DNA from: Flavobacteriales bacterium
Lineage (GTDB): Bacteria > Bacteroidota > Bacteroidia > UBA10329
DNA length: 64,000 bases
Assembly (NCBI GenBank): GCA_016124845.1
Contig: WGMW01000010.1
Coordinates: 1 to 64,000 of the forward strand
Direction of reading: 5' to 3'
In this document: one piece after another, positions 769-57,205 of the stretch
Layout: each line of letters starts with the position of its first letter
Position numbering within the stretch: position 1 is the stretch's first letter
Program-made: the position numbers and the translations under genes
The notes under the pieces: model-generated
Told to the model about the DNA's origin: nothing
Seen by the model: only the letters and a program-made list of their open reading frames with translations
Database searches by the model: none

Positions 769-1062
769 GTCAATCCCCATTATTTCATCGCAAGACACAA
801 TTATTCCCATGCAGACCCCGACAATTTTACCGCAACCCACGATAATTTCCGTGCAGATGGCCATCATTTCACTGTAGCAACCGACAATTCCAGTACAAAT
901 GCCAACAATTCCAATGTAAATGGTCATCATTACATAGTAGAGACCGATAATCCCCGTGCAGCAGCCGACCGTTCCAACGCAACTCCAGACAATTTCCCTG
1001 TAAGACCCATAAATACAGCCGCGTCCCGCAATAATGCAGCCGCCAGTCCAAATAATGAAACC
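769..1062. repeat. Degenerate 21-bp tandem array 1 (about 14 units)
   Basis: Starting at 769 the sequence falls into exact 21-base units (769, 790, 811 ... 1042) with no indels. Within a unit the pattern is GYAR, then about four variable bases, CC, one variable base, AYMATTYC, then about three variable bases. Thus about half the positions are nearly fixed and half vary strongly. Because 21 is a multiple of three, both strands stay open: the plus strand reads heptads around D-N-F, the minus strand heptads around G-I-V-G-x-C. It abuts the repeat mosaic on the left and ends about 80 bases before the flippase gene. It could encode a heptad-repeat peptide or be a non-coding array; the sequence does not decide this. 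Confidence 0.85.
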
Positions 1063-1143
1063 CCGCATGTTTTAACATTCATTCACGCAACTCATTAAAT
1101 CTTGCGACCTTCGGCTCGTTAGCCAACGACCAATACACCAGCA

Positions 1144-3353: not shown

Positions 3354-5071
3354 GGAGACTGTTGCACATAGTACCGTTGGTGGTGTTGATGTTGGCCGTA
3401 AGTGTCGCATCCGCACAGCGGAGAAAGAAGAAGGAGAAAGGCCCCAGCTACGAGGAGCAGCGGCAGATAACCGAACTGTTCTTTGATGCCAGCAAGGAGA
3501 AGATGCTCGGCAACTACGAGGAGGCGGCCGCGCTGTACCACGAATGCATCAAGATCTATCCGAAACATGCTGCCTCGTACTACGAGTTGGGAAACCTGCT
3601 CACCATGAGCCAGCATGTAGACGAAGCGCTGCCCTTTGCCAAACGCGCGCTGGAACTCGACCCCGACAATGAGTGGTATGCGCTTTTTGCCGCAGAGATC
3701 CTTATGAATCTGAATGATTTTGAGCTTGCCGCCAAGATCTATGAAAGGCTGGTGGAACAGCATCCCGAAAAGGTGGAATACATGTACGAGCTGGCCACCA
3801 CGTACATCTACATGAACAAGCCTGAAAAGGCGATTGACGCTTACAACAAGATCGAGGAACAATTGGGTGTGAGCGAGGAGATCTCGGTTCAAAAAGAGAA
3901 GATCTATTTGCAACTTGACCGTTTGGATGACGCGGTGAAAGAGCTGGAAAACCTGATCGCGAACTTCCCTGGCGAGCAACGCTATTTGGGTATGCTGGCG
4001 GAAGTTTACACCGCCAACGACATGCTGGATAAGGCATACGAAGTGTATGAGCGCATGATCAAAAACGATCCTGATGACCCGATCCTGCATCTGAATCTGG
4101 CGGAGTATTTCAAGAAGAAAGATGATTACGACCGTTCGTTCGAGGAACTGAAAGAAGCTTTCGGAAGCCCTGCGCTGGACATTGATCAGAAGATTCAGGT
4201 GATGATGTCCTATTACAATCTCACCGAAGGGAACGACAAGTTGCTTTCACAGGCCTATGAACTGCTTGACCTTCTGACCGCAGCACACCCGAAAGACGCC
4301 AAGGCATTTGCCATGAAGGCCGATTTTCTGCAACGCGATGGCAGGATCAAAGAAGCACGTGAGTCATTCTACAAGACCGTTGCCTTGGACAGCAGCCGAT
4401 TCATGATCTGGAGTTCATTGGTGAACACGAGCTATGAGTTGGGCGATTATGACGCCATGGAACGCGACAGTCGCAAGGCGCTGGAACTGTTCCCAAACCA
4501 AGGTTTGATGTACCTGATGAACGGCATTGCCAACAACAGCCTGAAGCGGTATAAGGAAGCCACAGACATTTTGAATGAAGGTGAGGTTTTCACCCGTTCG
4601 GACACGTACCTGAATGTACAATTGCTTTCTGTTCTGGCGGATGCCTACAACAACTTGAAGCAGTATCAGGAATCGGACGAGGCATTTGATAAGGCGCTTA
4701 AAAAAGACCCTGTGAATGCGCTCATTCTGAACAATTACGCCTACTTCCTTTCGCTGCGCGCAGAGAAATTGGATAAGGCCGAAGAGATGTCGCGCAGGTC
4801 GAATGTGTTGCAATCGCGGCAGCCATCTTATCAGGACACGTATGCGTGGATCCTTTATCAGGAACAGAAGTACGAAGAGGCTTTGGAATGGATTCTGAAA
4901 GCGATGGAGAACGGAGGTTCCACAAGCGGCACCATCGTGGAGCATTATGGCGACATTCTATACAAATTGGGCGAGACCGAAAAGGCGATGGAAGAATGGA
5001 AAGCGGCCTTGGAACTGGGCGACCATAGCGATGAACTTCCCGAAAAAGTAAACGGCAACAAATTGCCATAG
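3350..5071 (+). CDS. TPR-repeat protein, exported
   Basis: A tetratricopeptide-repeat protein of about 573 residues. After a signal peptide ([20 protein letters not shown]) and a short basic stretch, degenerate 34-residue TPR units run to near the C-terminus, for example [20 protein letters not shown] and [20 protein letters not shown]. The open frame extends upstream to 3281 inside dut, but the likely start is TTG at 3350. It overlaps the dut stop as TTGA, follows an AGGAAAG, and places the hydrophobic core correctly. TPR proteins are protein-interaction scaffolds; the partner is unknown. The dut-TPR-DUF4292-EnvC order is common in Bacteroidota, which suggests an envelope role. Confidence 0.85.
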
Positions 5072-50215: not shown

Positions 50216-53200
50216 ATGATGGAACACAGGAAATTCTTTCAGGCCTTAGGGTTCATCCCAAAGGAGAATACTGCGGAAATCTATACCAAGCGGTATGCTG
50301 GAGATTACACGATAGATATCGATTTTGCCAAGGAACAGATTCTTTACGGAGATAAGATCGTGTGCGAGAGTAAGACCACACAGAACTTCTCGCAGCCTGA
50401 GAATTTTGTGGTGTTGGAGTGTGTGAACCGTCTGCTGGAGAAAGGATACAGACCAGAGAACATCATACTTGAGAAAACATGGGGCGCAGGGCATGGTACA
50501 AGTGGCAGACTCGACATCTGCGTGACCCGCGATGACGGCTCGGAATATCTACTTATCGAGTGCAAGACGCGTGGAAAGGAATTCGAGAAGGAACTGAAGC
50601 GGATGGCGAAGGACGGTGGGCAGCTTTTCACCTACTTCAAGTTCAGCAACAAAGCCGATTTGCTGATGCTCTACGCCTCTGAGGTAAAGAGTAAGGAGGT
50701 GACTTATCAGAATGAGATTGTCAAGGTGGAGGACGATTATCGGGTGGGTGATGTCAAGGACTTCTACGATAAATGGAACAAGCTGACGAAGGATAATGGA
50801 GTGTTCGACTTATGGGTGAACCCCTACCAATTTGTCAGCAAGGCACTGACCCCGAAGCAACTCAAACCCATACAGCAGGAGGACAGTGGCTTTATCTTCA
50901 ACCGTTTCCTGGAGATACTTCGGCACAATGTGGTATCTGACAAGCCCAATGCCTTCAATAAGATATTCACCCTCTTTCTGTGCAAGGTGTATGACGAGAA
51001 GAGTACCAAGCCGAATGAGGAACTGAAATTCCAGTGGCTGGAGGGTGTGGATGATGATGTGAGCTTCCAGATACGCTTGACTGATCTCTACAAGAATGGG
51101 ATGATGGAATTCTTGGAGAAGGAGGTGACTGACTTCTCAGTAGAGGAATTCGAACGGGAATACGTGGACTTGGATGAAGTGCTGAAAAAGCGTCTATTGA
51201 CCAAGATCAACAAACTGCGGTTGGAGAAGAACAACGAATTCGCCATCAAGGAGGTGTTTGATGAGAAATCATTCAACGAGAACGCCAAGGTGGTGAAGGA
51301 GATCGTGGAACTGCTACAAGGTTACCGTCTACGCTACAACAAGCGGCAACAATACCTGAGCGATTTCTTTGAACTGCTACTGACCACGGGACTGAAACAG
51401 GAATCGGGTCAGTTCTTCACGCCTGTGCCCATTGCCCAGTTCATTATCAAGAGCCTGCCTATCGACACCATGGTGGACGAGAAACTGGAAAAAGGCGAAC
51501 GGAATAACCTGCTGCCCTATATCATTGACTACGCGGCAGGCAGCGGACATTTTCTGACCGAAAGCATGCACGAGGTGCAACGACTGGTGGATGCAAAGAA
51601 CCCATCCGACTATATTGAAGACACCCGCAAAAAGGTGGACAACTGGCATGGCAATCATTTCGACTGGGCCACGCAATACGTCTATGGCATTGAGAAGGAT
51701 TACCGACTGGTGAAGGTGGGCAAGGTGGGCTGCTACCTGCACGGTGACGGCCTTGCCAATGTGATATTGAGCGATGGGCTGGGCAGTTTCAGGAACAACA
51801 CGGAATATAAGGAACTGCTGCGGAAGACCGACCCCGACTTTCCGCAGGACAACCGCCAGTTCGATATGCTCGTTTCCAACCCGCCTTATTCGGTGGCGGC
51901 ATTCAAGAATGCGGCAAGGCAGTATTACCGCGATGAAGACTTCGCCTTGTATGACAGGCTCACAGACAACAGTTCGGAGATTGAATGCCTCTTTGTGGAG
52001 CGCACCAAGCAACTGCTGCGTGACGGTGGCGTGGCGGGGGTTATCCTGCCCAGTAGCATCCTAAGCAACTCAGGTATTTACACCCGTGCAAGGGAGGTGA
52101 TATTGAACTACTTCGACATCATTGCCATTGCCGAGTTGGGCAGCAATACCTTCATGGCAACAGGCACCAACACGGTGACCCTGTTCCTGCGCAGGCGCAA
52201 CAATTATATCCACATCAATCTGCGCAAGGCCGTGGAACGCTTCTTTGGCAATGGGCAGGAGGTGACCATGAACGGGGTGGAGCATCCTGTACAGAAATAC
52301 GTGACCCACGTGTGGGAAGGGCTATCTGTGTCCGATTACCTCACCCTCTTGCAGCAGAAGCCCAACGGACAGGCAGCCGTCCATGAGCTCTATAAGGACT
52401 ATTGCAGGAAGATAAAGGCCAAGACCGACAAGGAGTTTTGGGAGAAGTTGCTACGGACGGAGCAGGAGAAGCTGTGTACCTTCCTCTTGGTTTGGGCACA
52501 GCACACCGTAGTGATAAAAAGCGGTGAGAAGGCCGCTGAAAAACGCTTTCTCGGCTATGAGTTTAGCTTCCGTAGGGGCAGCGAGGGCATTCACCCCATA
52601 CAGCGGGGCAAGAGCATTTCCGAATGCACCCAACTCTTTGATGAGGACAGCTTTGACAACCCTGAGAAGGCCGCCACATACATCCATCGCGCCTACAAGG
52701 GCGACTACACCTCTGAGGTGCATGATAGCCTTAAAGCGAACATCACCCGACACCGTCTGGTGGATATGATAACCTTTGACCGTGCCGATTTTGAGAAAAG
52801 CATCTCGTTGGCGGTTAAAAAAAAAGTCACGATTGAAAGTAGATGGACCCTTGTCAGAATTGGAGATGTATGCGAAACCGGTTCAGGAGGAACCCCATTA
52901 TCAGGCACCACTGAGTATTATTTGAATGGCTCCATCCTTTGGATAAATAGTAGTGAGGTCAGGCAAGGTGTGATATTGGACTCAGAGAACAAAATCACCG
53001 AAGCTGGGCTTATTAACTCTTCCGCTAAAATTTTCCCTAAGAATACTGTTCTGCTGGCCATGTACGGAGCAACTGCGGGACAGGTAGGGATTCTTGGAGT
53101 TGAAGCGTCTACAAATCAGGCCGTTTGCGGCATTATGCCAAGTGAGCGGATCCTTCCCTACTATCTGTACTATGTCTTACGAGAACAGTATGAGAATATA

Positions 53201-53974
53201 CTCAGCCTAAGAAGCGGTGTTGCAAGATTGAACATCTCTCAGGAGATTGTAAAAGATATGAGAGTGCCTCTACCTCCTCTGTCGGTGCAACAGCAGGTTG
53301 TGGGTGAAGTGGAGAAGATCGAGAAGCGTGAAGAGGAGTTGAGGGAGGAAGTCGGTAAGTTGCAAGTTAAGATTGATACCATTGTTACAGCGATGGATCA
53401 TCCTACATCTACTTTAGGTCAAATAGCGTCATTTAAAAACGGCCTTAACTATTCAAGAAATAGTTCTGGAGAGTTGGTCAGTATTGTTGGGGTCGGAGAG
53501 TTCCAAGAGAATTTTTCGCCTGATATGGGTAAGCTGGAAAAAGTACAGGTCGAGGGCAAGTTAAGCGAGGAATATGAACTGCGCGCAGGTGATATATTGG
53601 TGGTGAGGTCAAACGGATCTGCAAATCTTGTTGGAAGGTTTCTCTTCATCTCCAAAGTGCTTGAGAAGACCTCATATTCGGGATTTACCATTCGCATACG
53701 TACCAATCCCGAAGAGGTAAACTCTAAATTTCTCTGTCATTGTTTACGCACCAGTGCGGTCAGAGAGAAAATGACCACAGACAGTAAAGGGTCTAATATC
53801 AAGAGCCTGAACCAGACCCTACTTGCCTCAATCCAAGTGCCTTTGCCTCCTCTCTCAGAACAGCAGCGTATCCTATCTGAGATAGAAGCGATAGAAACCC
53901 GTATCCAAAATTTGGAGGAGGAACTTGCGGCACTTCCCCCCCAGAAGCAAGCAGTACTGAAGAAGTACCTCTGA
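50216..53974 (+). CDS. Single-chain restriction-methylase-specificity enzyme (Type IIG/IIL-like)
   Basis: A 1252-residue protein combining all restriction-modification functions. The N-terminal nuclease has the PD-(D/E)XK pattern Asp100 (GRLDI), Glu115-x-Lys117 (IECK) and Gln136. A helical linker follows, then an N6-adenine methyltransferase with motif I DYAAGSGHF near residue 438 and motif IV NPPY near residue 555. From about residue 875 there are two HsdS-like target-recognition domains (WTLVRIGDVCETGSGGTP and STLGQIASFKNG), each followed by a PLPPLS-plus-coiled-coil spacer. It probably cuts and methylates a bipartite site. An A9 run (52817-52825) sits at the methylase/specificity border, and the specificity part is more AT-rich than the rest. 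No separate hsdR, M or S genes flank it. Confidence 0.9.
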   Translation: MMEHRKFFQALGFIPKENTAEIYTKRYAGDYTIDIDFAKEQILYGDKIVCESKTTQNFSQPENFVVLECVNRLLEKGYRPENIILEKTWGAGHGTSGRLDICVTRDDGSEYLLIECKTRGKEFEKELKRMAKDGGQLFTYFKFSNKADLLMLYASEVKSKEVTYQNEIVKVEDDYRVGDVKDFYDKWNKLTKDNGVFDLWVNPYQFVSKALTPKQLKPIQQEDSGFIFNRFLEILRHNVVSDKPNAFNKIFTLFLCKVYDEKSTKPNEELKFQWLEGVDDDVSFQIRLTDLYKNGMMEFLEKEVTDFSVEEFEREYVDLDEVLKKRLLTKINKLRLEKNNEFAIKEVFDEKSFNENAKVVKEIVELLQGYRLRYNKRQQYLSDFFELLLTTGLKQESGQFFTPVPIAQFIIKSLPIDTMVDEKLEKGERNNLLPYIIDYAAGSGHFLTESMHEVQRLVDAKNPSDYIEDTRKKVDNWHGNHFDWATQYVYGIEKDYRLVKVGKVGCYLHGDGLANVILSDGLGSFRNNTEYKELLRKTDPDFPQDNRQFDMLVSNPPYSVAAFKNAARQYYRDEDFALYDRLTDNSSEIECLFVERTKQLLRDGGVAGVILPSSILSNSGIYTRAREVILNYFDIIAIAELGSNTFMATGTNTVTLFLRRRNNYIHINLRKAVERFFGNGQEVTMNGVEHPVQKYVTHVWEGLSVSDYLTLLQQKPNGQAAVHELYKDYCRKIKAKTDKEFWEKLLRTEQEKLCTFLLVWAQHTVVIKSGEKAAEKRFLGYEFSFRRGSEGIHPIQRGKSISECTQLFDEDSFDNPEKAATYIHRAYKGDYTSEVHDSLKANITRHRLVDMITFDRADFEKSISLAVKKKVTIESRWTLVRIGDVCETGSGGTPLSGTTEYYLNGSILWINSSEVRQGVILDSENKITEAGLINSSAKIFPKNTVLLAMYGATAGQVGILGVEASTNQAVCGIMPSERILPYYLYYVLREQYENILSLRSGVARLNISQEIVKDMRVPLPPLSVQQQVVGEVEKIEKREEELREEVGKLQVKIDTIVTAMDHPTSTLGQIASFKNGLNYSRNSSGELVSIVGVGEFQENFSPDMGKLEKVQVEGKLSEEYELRAGDILVVRSNGSANLVGRFLFISKVLEKTSYSGFTIRIRTNPEEVNSKFLCHCLRTSAVREKMTTDSKGSNIKSLNQTLLASIQVPLPPLSEQQRILSEIEAIETRIQNLEEELAALPPQKQAVLKKYL

Positions 53975-54666: not shown

Positions 54667-54990
54667 TCACCCACCCCTCTCAATCCTCCTCAGAATCTCC
54701 TCAATTTCCTGAGGCGATTTACCAGCAAGCAGCCGCGCCAATTCAGGAAAATCAGATTTCTTCAACGCATTCAGGTGGCTCTTACGGTCGCCAATCCAAG
54801 TAAATAGATCATTCGGTTGGCAATGGAAGGTGTTGCACAACCGCTCCATGGTTACCAGCCGTACCTCTTTGGCCTCCGTGTGCAACAGACCCCGTGCCTC
54901 GCTCGGTGTAAAACCATGGTTGATCAGAAAAGAACGGCCATAACGGATGTTGTTCAGGGCTAATAGTCGGTGAATGTCAAGACGTATCAT
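54667..54990 (-). CDS. XRE-like helix-turn-helix regulator
   Basis: About 107 residues from ATG 54990 (the open frame extends to 55044, but the first Met at a domain start is MIRLDIHRLLALNNI). Residues about 5-70 form a Cro/C1-type helix-turn-helix (GRSFLINHGFTPSEARGLLH, then VTMERLCNTFHCQPNDLFTW). The tail (SPQEIEEILRRIERGG) is a short amphipathic helix. It is convergent with the gene at 54064 and transcribed away from the 21-bp array that begins about 75 bases upstream of its start, so its promoter lies between it and the array or within the array. Confidence 0.8.
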   Translation of the reverse strand: MIRLDIHRLLALNNIRYGRSFLINHGFTPSEARGLLHTEAKEVRLVTMERLCNTFHCQPNDLFTWIGDRKSHLNALKKSDFPELARLLAGKSPQEIEEILRRIERGG

Positions 54991-55064: not shown

Positions 55065-55316
55065 AAATGCCTCACATTGGTATTTCAATCGCCAACAGGT
55101 GCTTTTCAACCACCAACAAGTGTCGTTGAATCACCAACCATGCATTTTCAACAACCAACTCCAGTTGTTCAATAACCAACCTTGGTTGTGCAATCGCAAA
55201 CAGAAATCGTTCAATCGCCATCCGTGCGTTTGCAATAACCAACAGTAATCGTGCAACAGCCATCCACAAGTGTGCAATCACCAACCAGTGGTTATTCAGC
55301 ACACCATAAGTTTCGG
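55065..55316. repeat. Degenerate 21-bp tandem array 2 (about 10 good units)
   Basis: Ten clear units start every 21 bases from 55086 to 55275 without indels; 55065 and 55296 start weaker end units. Each unit is CAAYNRCCAAC, then about seven variable bases, then a G/T-rich end (KTK). The first half is nearly constant and the second half differs in every unit. Both strands are open through the array: plus-strand heptads read F-N-x-Q-x-x-x, minus-strand heptads read x-x-x-L-V-I-x. It lies between an XRE-like gene (minus) and the 55432 gene (plus). The period equals that of array 1, but the unit sequence differs. Confidence 0.88.
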
Positions 55317-55431: not shown

Positions 55432-56388
55432 ATGACAGACGATCAATCAAATCAACTCGACATGCTCCTTATTCTTAAGGACTTCTACACCGCCAATCAA
55501 GTGACCATAGACGCAGTACCCATCCTCGCGCTCAACTTTCCCAAGCTCGCCACCAACATTGCCGTTATCAACAGCAACTTGGCGGGGCAATCGGCCAATA
55601 TCAAGGGGGTTGCACAGACCAAGACCAACCTCCGCACAAACCTCAACGAACTCACATTCAACATCCTTGGTATCGCACGCGCTTGGGCCGTGGCCGAGGG
55701 AAATGCAACGCTGGCCGAAGAGTTCAAGGTCACAGAATCGGGCCTCGAGAAAATAAAGGACGACACCGTTGCCGCCTACTGCACCCATCGCTACATCTTG
55801 GTCAACGATAACTTGGCCTCCATGGCCGATTACGGCATTACCGCAGCCACCATGACCACATGGCAGGACGCCATCACCGATTATGAAAGTGCCGTGGCAA
55901 CGCCCCGCGAGGCCGTAAACACACGAAGTACGCACACAAGCAATCTCAAGACCGTCTTCGATGATACCATGAAGCTCCTCAAAGAGAACATCGACCCCGT
56001 CATGCTCAACTTCAAAACCTCCGACCCCGACCTCTACAACGGGTACACAAAAGCCCGAATCGTCATCGATCGCAAAGGACCTGGAGGTGGCACCGATCCT
56101 TCTTCAACAGATGCCAAGCTCTCAGGACAGATAACCGATGCCAACACGCTTACTCCGATCGTTGAGGTGGCCGTTACGCTAACTTCCTCTACCTCGGGTA
56201 CGGCTACGCCTCCCGTAACCGTGCTTACGGATGTCAATGGAAATTACGTGTTTGAGGGCATTACGCCCGGTGGGTTCTCCTTTTTGGCTGAGAAGGTCGG
56301 GTATGAGTCGGTGAGCAATTCGGGTACGCTGGGGGATGGCGAAAGTGCTGTTTATGACTTTCAGATGACGCCTGTGGTGGTGCCTTGA
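55432..56388 (+). CDS. Helical protein with C-terminal carboxypeptidase-regulatory-like domain
   Basis: A 318-residue protein of unknown function. Residues 1-215 are mostly helical and amphipathic with no family I can name (YTANQVTIDAVPILALNFPK, LNELTFNILGIARAWAVAEG, MADYGITAATMTTWQDAITD). A Gly/Ser linker leads to a carboxypeptidase-regulatory-like beta-sandwich (LSGQITDANTLTPIVEVAVT, TDVNGNYVFEGITPGGFSF). Such sandwiches are normally extracellular, yet the N-terminus (MTDDQSNQLDMLLILKDFY) is no signal peptide. It starts about 115 bases after the 21-bp array, on the strand leading away from it. Confidence 0.8.
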   Translation: MTDDQSNQLDMLLILKDFYTANQVTIDAVPILALNFPKLATNIAVINSNLAGQSANIKGVAQTKTNLRTNLNELTFNILGIARAWAVAEGNATLAEEFKVTESGLEKIKDDTVAAYCTHRYILVNDNLASMADYGITAATMTTWQDAITDYESAVATPREAVNTRSTHTSNLKTVFDDTMKLLKENIDPVMLNFKTSDPDLYNGYTKARIVIDRKGPGGGTDPSSTDAKLSGQITDANTLTPIVEVAVTLTSSTSGTATPPVTVLTDVNGNYVFEGITPGGFSFLAEKVGYESVSNSGTLGDGESAVYDFQMTPVVVP

Positions 56389-56704: not shown

Positions 56705-57205
56705 ATGGACCTGAACCATTATCCAAACATTTGGCCTGACCTGCTTCCTGTCTTGGAGGCTGCCCTACAGAAGCATGAAGAGGCCACGGCCAAAATGGCC
56801 GATTTCAGAAAGAAGTACACCTCCGTTAAGAATAAAGCGAAGCGGGTAGAGAAGTATCTGGTAACCATGGATGAGGAGATGAGAAAATACCACGAGCTCT
56901 ACATGCTTGACTGTTTGCGTTTGGCCGAGAACAAATTCGCACTCATTGACAAGAAACTGAAGCGTTTCAAGCAGCACGAGCAACTGTATTGCAATCAATC
57001 GCTCAAGCTGCTCAAGGGTTCAAGGGCCATGGAACCCAATACCACACATTGGCACATACAAAGGATATCGACTTACCTCTATAGATCAAATGAACTTATC
57101 AGAGATGTTTCCGATATGCTCCGTATTGCCAAAGGACATCTGGACAAAGTAGACCACATAAAGAAGTATTGGGCTCAGATCCGTAAACGAAGAAGACCAT
57201 CATAG
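56705..57205 (+). CDS. Hypothetical coiled-coil protein
   Basis: A 166-residue, strongly basic, helical protein that I do not recognise. Heptad-like helices dominate (ALQKHEEATAKMADFRKKYT, KNKAKRVEKYLVTMDEEMRK) and the C-terminus is KKYWAQIRKRRRPS. There is no signal peptide or membrane helix, so it is probably cytoplasmic, perhaps nucleic-acid or protein binding. It stands alone between a repeat-containing gap and a secreted protein gene. Confidence 0.6.
   Translation: MDLNHYPNIWPDLLPVLEAALQKHEEATAKMADFRKKYTSVKNKAKRVEKYLVTMDEEMRKYHELYMLDCLRLAENKFALIDKKLKRFKQHEQLYCNQSLKLLKGSRAMEPNTTHWHIQRISTYLYRSNELIRDVSDMLRIAKGHLDKVDHIKKYWAQIRKRRRPS

Follow-up and report, generated by a model that had tools for sequence, protein, structure and literature searches.

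Plasmid iterons are direct repeats of about two helical turns that lie beside the gene of the Rep initiator that binds them. In the type II ParR-parC and type III TubR-tubC systems, a small protein occupies every tandem unit, assembles into a helical row and acts as repressor of its own operon (PMC5016525). The Omega repressor of pSM19035 acts through parS heptad arrays, which are contiguous short sites over promoters, four or more of which are needed (PMC9499535). Here we describe an array with a period of 21 base pairs (bp) at positions 55066..55316 of a 64,000-nucleotide stretch of a Flavobacteriales genome (contig WGMW01000010.1 of assembly GCA_016124845.1; hereafter the window). The array lies between the gene of a small helix-turn-helix (HTH) protein of the HTH_26 family (54667-54990, minus strand) and a gene for a protein of 318 amino acids (aa) (55432-56388, plus strand), and it is probably a phased row of operators bound by the adjacent HTH protein. 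No published description of such an array type was found in the literature.

Anatomy of the 21-bp array

The array is real. It comprises ten clear units, spanning 55066-55287, and a degenerate eleventh that reaches about 55316. Each unit consists of a conserved half of about 11 bp, CAAYNRCCAAC, and a variable half of about 10 bp; the core reads GTTGGYNRTTG on the minus strand, in the direction of the HTH gene. Identity of the array with itself at a lag of 21 was 0.597, whereas 1000 dinucleotide shuffles gave 0.263 (standard deviation (sd) 0.032) and at most 0.363; Tandem Repeats Finder reported periods of 21 and 42. The exact 21-base period over ten units that a first-pass annotation had read from the letters was thereby borne out, as was its fixed unit length, the units aligning without any indel.

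The same annotation had divided each unit into a nearly fixed and a hypervariable half. The nearly fixed half was indeed present, with deviations in unit 3 (GAAT), unit 6 (CGCAAAC) and units 7 and 9 (CCATC), but the variable half was found to be non-random. The genome of the window (G000) has the same repeat at one other place, L006:4267-4540 on contig C9, where whole units are shared in a different order; several units are common to the two arrays, with 28 of 30 bases identical in one stretch. As to the further proposal that change is confined to one segment, contiguity of the conserved columns was significant but modest in the window array alone (p 0.025-0.03) and strong when pooled over 100 arrays (p about 1e-11). 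Near the C9 array lies a gene for a membrane protein (4668-5066), judged by eye to be DUF2177-like.

Linkage and co-divergence of the array with the HTH gene

The HTH gene encodes a Cro/C1-type DNA-binding protein of 107 aa (Pfam PF13443, E 2.7e-8). Its start is 76 bp from the array, and the array is therefore the upstream region of this gene. In the genus of the window, the HTH gene is divergent from the 318-aa gene and the array is located in between. An array also lay directly 5′ of HTH homologues at other places in these genomes, where no 318-aa gene is close by. The genomes compared were mostly draft assemblies, and neighbours were judged from open reading frame (ORF) lists and selected Pfam scans rather than from profile searches for every candidate partner.

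Consistent with the position predicted for tandem operators in a control region, a period-21 array was present directly 5′ of the start in 21 of 21 genes of the HTH subfamily, mostly within 10-200 bp (15 genomes; this count leaves out further HTH genes in G093, G011, G057, G065 and G125). Array scores were clear (at least 0.55) at 19 of these loci and weak (0.53) at the other two (L300 and L304), and 11 of the 21 had no gene of family A (that of the 318-aa protein), B or C (described below) in the fetched flank. None of 16 more distant HTH_26 homologues reached a score of 0.55, the best being 0.52. In an independent test, all 13 HTH loci outside the search alignment had an array 5′. The HTH gene is the constant partner of the arrays. 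Four proteins of the subfamily (L300:6520-7203, L301:5977-6681, L302:6700-7350 and L304:6434-7138) have two HTH units per chain, and an array lies 5′ of each of their genes.

Unit sequences vary among loci and among close orthologues, and period, position and orientation are kept. At six loci of the window's genus, the likeness of arrays placed in the same orientation to the HTH gene averaged 0.42, against a null of 0.267 (sd 0.018) and 0.31 for the reverse complement, and a GGTTGG-like core in that orientation was common to several of the six. The arrays and the HTH proteins also diverge together: in a Mantel test, array similarity was correlated with HTH identity (rho 0.35, p 0.0005), with a rho of 0.16 (p 0.019) in the reverse-complement orientation. 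This co-divergence and the fixed orientation bear only indirectly on the predicted sequence-specific binding of the units.

Conservation of the period beside the 318-aa gene and other families

A period-21 array was located within 800 bp of the gene in 60 of 81 family-A homologues (36 genomes); other periods from 14 to 35 bp were each found at 0-3. The density of arrays was 0.493 per kb near the family-A gene and 0.0145 per kb further off. A DNA search of 98 relatives detected no related array, because the sequence is not conserved: each family-A locus has its own unit. In the closest orthologue (G002; N-terminal domain 77% identical), a GGCATGCCACACCGTCTTGCT-type unit occupies the same place, with a sequence unrelated to that of the window. 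In an orthologous family-A pair of the genus g4 (flanking gene 90.5% identical), the 11-bp core TGGAAAAAGAA is nearly fixed and the 10-bp spacer differs. One array of this pair has 10 units and the other about 14, the difference being made up of whole units, some of them recurring, and units are shared at both ends of the array. The comparison of the two halves that the first-pass annotation had called for thus gave a fixed constant half and a variable half turned over by whole units. What it had named as grounds for refutation, uniform drift with indels or no array in relatives, gave way to arrays in the same place with the same period. Four genomes without family A contained no noncoding 21-bp array in 400 kb, and two genomes with family A (G000 and G093) had additional arrays elsewhere.

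The 318-aa gene is divergent from the HTH gene and 145 bp from the array. Its product has an all-helical N-terminal domain of about 215 residues, which belongs to no Pfam family, and a C-terminal CarboxypepD_reg (Ig-like) domain; by eye, no obvious signal peptide is present. A fold search of the N-terminal domain against the PDB gave no significant match (best E 0.31), and the full-length model matched Ig-like domains only. The nearest named relatives of the host of this gene are mostly Flavobacteriales metagenome-assembled genomes, and no relative of the family was found in viral contigs, phages or plasmids (N-terminal region, by tblastn for plasmids and phages). The 318-aa protein was considered as a binder of the array; its N-terminal domain, acidic in this protein (net charge -6), is mixed in charge across the family, and the protein is thus not the obvious one. 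Two family-A loci showed peculiarities. At L065:10361-10889, upstream of the gene, the array has a 41-bp period, near but not equal to two 21-bp units, and at L061:1245-3140 the family-A frame is open upstream through the array, which would add a heptad-repeat extension judged fortuitous. The gene of a 166-aa helical protein (56705..57205, plus strand) is a loosely associated neighbour, present beside the orthologous G002 locus too.

Two arrays of G093 away from the 318-aa family adjoin two other families, B and C. At 24 of its 27 loci, family B (about 250 aa, basic; L231-L257; ETGHAKNVANF...YNPS) was accompanied by a 21-bp array, which mostly lies 3′ of the gene; the family has two relatives in IMG/VR. 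Family C (about 240 aa; L258-L287), with a helical start and an apparent Ig/Fn3-like end, had one at 22 of 30 loci, mostly 5′. No Pfam family was found for either, and by profile comparison families A, B and C are unrelated to each other. Units with dyad symmetry (p<0.05) were found in 59% of family-C arrays compared with 2% of upstream family-A arrays. The family-C dyads had no within-unit covariation and no G-U excess, their halves varying independently, which fits degenerate DNA half-sites and not RNA hairpins; the hairpins were rejected for the lack of covariation. Some family-A and family-C arrays, including some with dyad symmetry in family C, are flanked by other small HTH genes.

The window holds a second 21-bp-period array at 775..1064, with about 14 units of a different sequence (about CCCGACAATTCCANTGCAAAT). 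It lies 5′ of a polysaccharide-flippase-like gene and adjoins neither an HTH gene nor a 318-aa homologue. Positions 1-760 contain dense dispersed repeats around GTGAGCGAAGCGAACC and TTTGCGTCTTGGCGGCTTTGCGAGA, which are also present at L066:8400-9100. A single gene at 50216-53974 encodes a 1252-aa protein with N6 methylase and specificity domains and a weak, below cut-off HSDR_N match at the N-terminus; it is a single-chain, type I restriction-modification-like protein.

The proposed operator row, its alternatives and related systems

The protein-binding array was among the options raised by the first-pass annotation, and linkage, orientation and co-divergence tie it to the adjoining HTH gene. 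In the model that we infer, which is probable on present evidence, the HTH protein would occupy the array and act from there as a regulator. Each unit would pair a recognition core with a spacer, each of them about one helical turn long. Since the 21-bp period corresponds to two turns of B-DNA, bound proteins would all lie on one face of the DNA, where a cooperative row is possible. Helical phasing and a conserved core are what tandem operators would be predicted to have, and the array combines the period of 21 with contiguous conserved columns. The sequence of the spacer would be nearly free to drift and its length constrained, which would give one constant and one hypervariable half. Because the array lies in the control region of both the HTH gene and the divergent 318-aa gene, the HTH protein is likely to regulate its own gene and to control the neighbour. 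Since the HTH protein and the array diverge together, the period is retained as the sequence changes. The second G000 array, on another contig, has the same core, as a trans-acting factor would require. Occurrence of the same layout with other site sequences in related Bacteroidota suggests a widespread regulatory system.

Several observations weigh against this model. No HTH gene was recognised beside most family-A arrays outside the window's genus, or beside any family-B array, and the binder of such arrays would have to be trans-acting or unrecognised. The B arrays are mostly 3′ of the gene, and some G000 arrays lie between convergent genes, a setting in which control of a promoter is unlikely. 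The plus-strand RNA of the window array folded somewhat better than shuffled sequences (z -2.6). The array detector favours an exact period, so that arrays whose period has drifted may be missed, and the Mantel and orientation tests take in related loci.

The HTH-array complex could instead serve mainly as architecture and less for regulation: a nucleoprotein row on the chromosome that resembles a centromere or anchors DNA, and whose partners would be the linked helical proteins. The ten to thirty tandem sites per array exceed the needs of simple repression, such a row would also accommodate the arrays located where genes converge and those 3′ of family B, and parC and tubC are themselves tandem arrays upstream of the gene of an autoregulated binding protein (PMC5016525). 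We nevertheless consider this unlikely. No partition nucleoside triphosphatase (NTPase; ParA, ParM or TubZ) was recognised in the neighbour comparison over 81 loci, in which no profile search aimed at them was made; the genes lie on chromosomes, in multiple copies per genome, and the N-terminal region of the 318-aa protein has no tblastn match in plasmids or phages.

A role for the array as a transcript, such as a structured leader on the mRNA of the 318-aa protein, is improbable. At several loci little distance separates the array from the start codon, no TAnnTTTG promoter was seen between array and gene at most loci, and the plus-strand fold noted above is in keeping with a leader. However, the minus strand gave a z of only -0.64, the dyads lacked the signature of paired RNA, no Rfam family scored above threshold for the array, and some arrays lie 5′ of HTH genes that have no 318-aa gene, others between convergent genes.

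A neutral or selfish tandem repeat, expanded by slippage and with its 21-bp unit a product of chance, was already disfavoured and appears very improbable. The fast turnover of unit sequence and the variable unit number would be expected of such a repeat. Its period would not be expected to recur at 60 of 81 homologues, nor to be absent as noncoding arrays from the genomes without family A. The strict linkage to particular gene families, the contiguous conserved core, and the orientation and co-divergence with the HTH gene likewise argue against it.

The first-pass annotation had also proposed a gene for a heptad-repeat peptide, with seven codons per unit, under diversifying selection. One minus-strand frame is indeed open through the window array (82 aa) and through the C9 array. 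Over 100 arrays, however, 2603 stops were counted where 3061 were expected; the depletion affected every one of the six frames alike, which explains the open frames and led to rejection of the coding reading. The best frames were spread evenly over strands and phases, many arrays had stops in every frame, and no one frame was consistently open. This reading, already disfavoured, is hardly credible. Likewise disfavoured and scarcely tenable at all is storage of guides in the short variable segments, another of its suggestions: the alternation of constant and variable segments and the sharing of units at both ends of an orthologous pair would fit, but the variable halves reappear as near-copies, both in the same array and in different ones, resemble copies that have diverged from each other, offer at 7-10 bases too little to address a target, and have no adaptation genes recognised nearby.

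A broader view is doubtful and is offered as speculation: a Bacteroidota-wide chromosomal system in which the 21-bp pitch and not the sequence is conserved, and in which fast-evolving HTH rows on self-matching arrays would recruit or control several unrelated helical, apparently non-secreted families, forming a new nucleoprotein structure. A cis element with conserved spacing and unconserved sequence is invisible to sequence searches, which may explain why no description of it was found. The arrays link a regulator to protein families that lack Pfam domains, and they raise the direct question of whether an HTH protein of drifting specificity follows its own array. Should the rows prove architectural, they would represent a new kind of chromosomal nucleoprotein structure. 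A scan for period 21 is cheap and can be applied to any genome.

Among known systems, CRISPR arrays are accompanied by cas genes, and their repeats, of about 23 bp or longer, alternate with spacers of comparable length. The present array resembles them in the alternation of constant and variable segments at fixed spacing and differs in a far too short unit (11 plus 10 bp) and in variable segments that are copies of one another. No cas gene was recognised in the immediate neighbourhood (ORF list, Pfam), and the initial judgement that the array is not CRISPR therefore stands. A diversity-generating retroelement would have a reverse transcriptase and a pair of template and variable repeats; no reverse transcriptase was noticed among the neighbours, although no search aimed at one was made. 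Like iterons, the units are two-turn direct repeats beside the gene of a putative binding protein. Unlike at an iteron origin, no Rep initiator gene was found in the Pfam scan of the window neighbours or in the neighbour lists, and there are many arrays per chromosome.

The omega-parS arrays are likewise rows of short sites over a control region, bound by a ribbon-helix-helix protein at 7-bp units; here, an HTH protein would bind a 21-bp unit with a free spacer. The parC and tubC centromeres share with the present locus a tandem array upstream of the gene of a small DNA-binding protein, binding being predicted here from the layout. These are plasmid systems with an actin- or tubulin-like NTPase, whereas the arrays described here are chromosomal, have no such NTPase recognised nearby, are paired with an HTH_26 protein and have unit sequences that differ from locus to locus. 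The array would, by analogy, work like those of parC, tubC and omega-parS.
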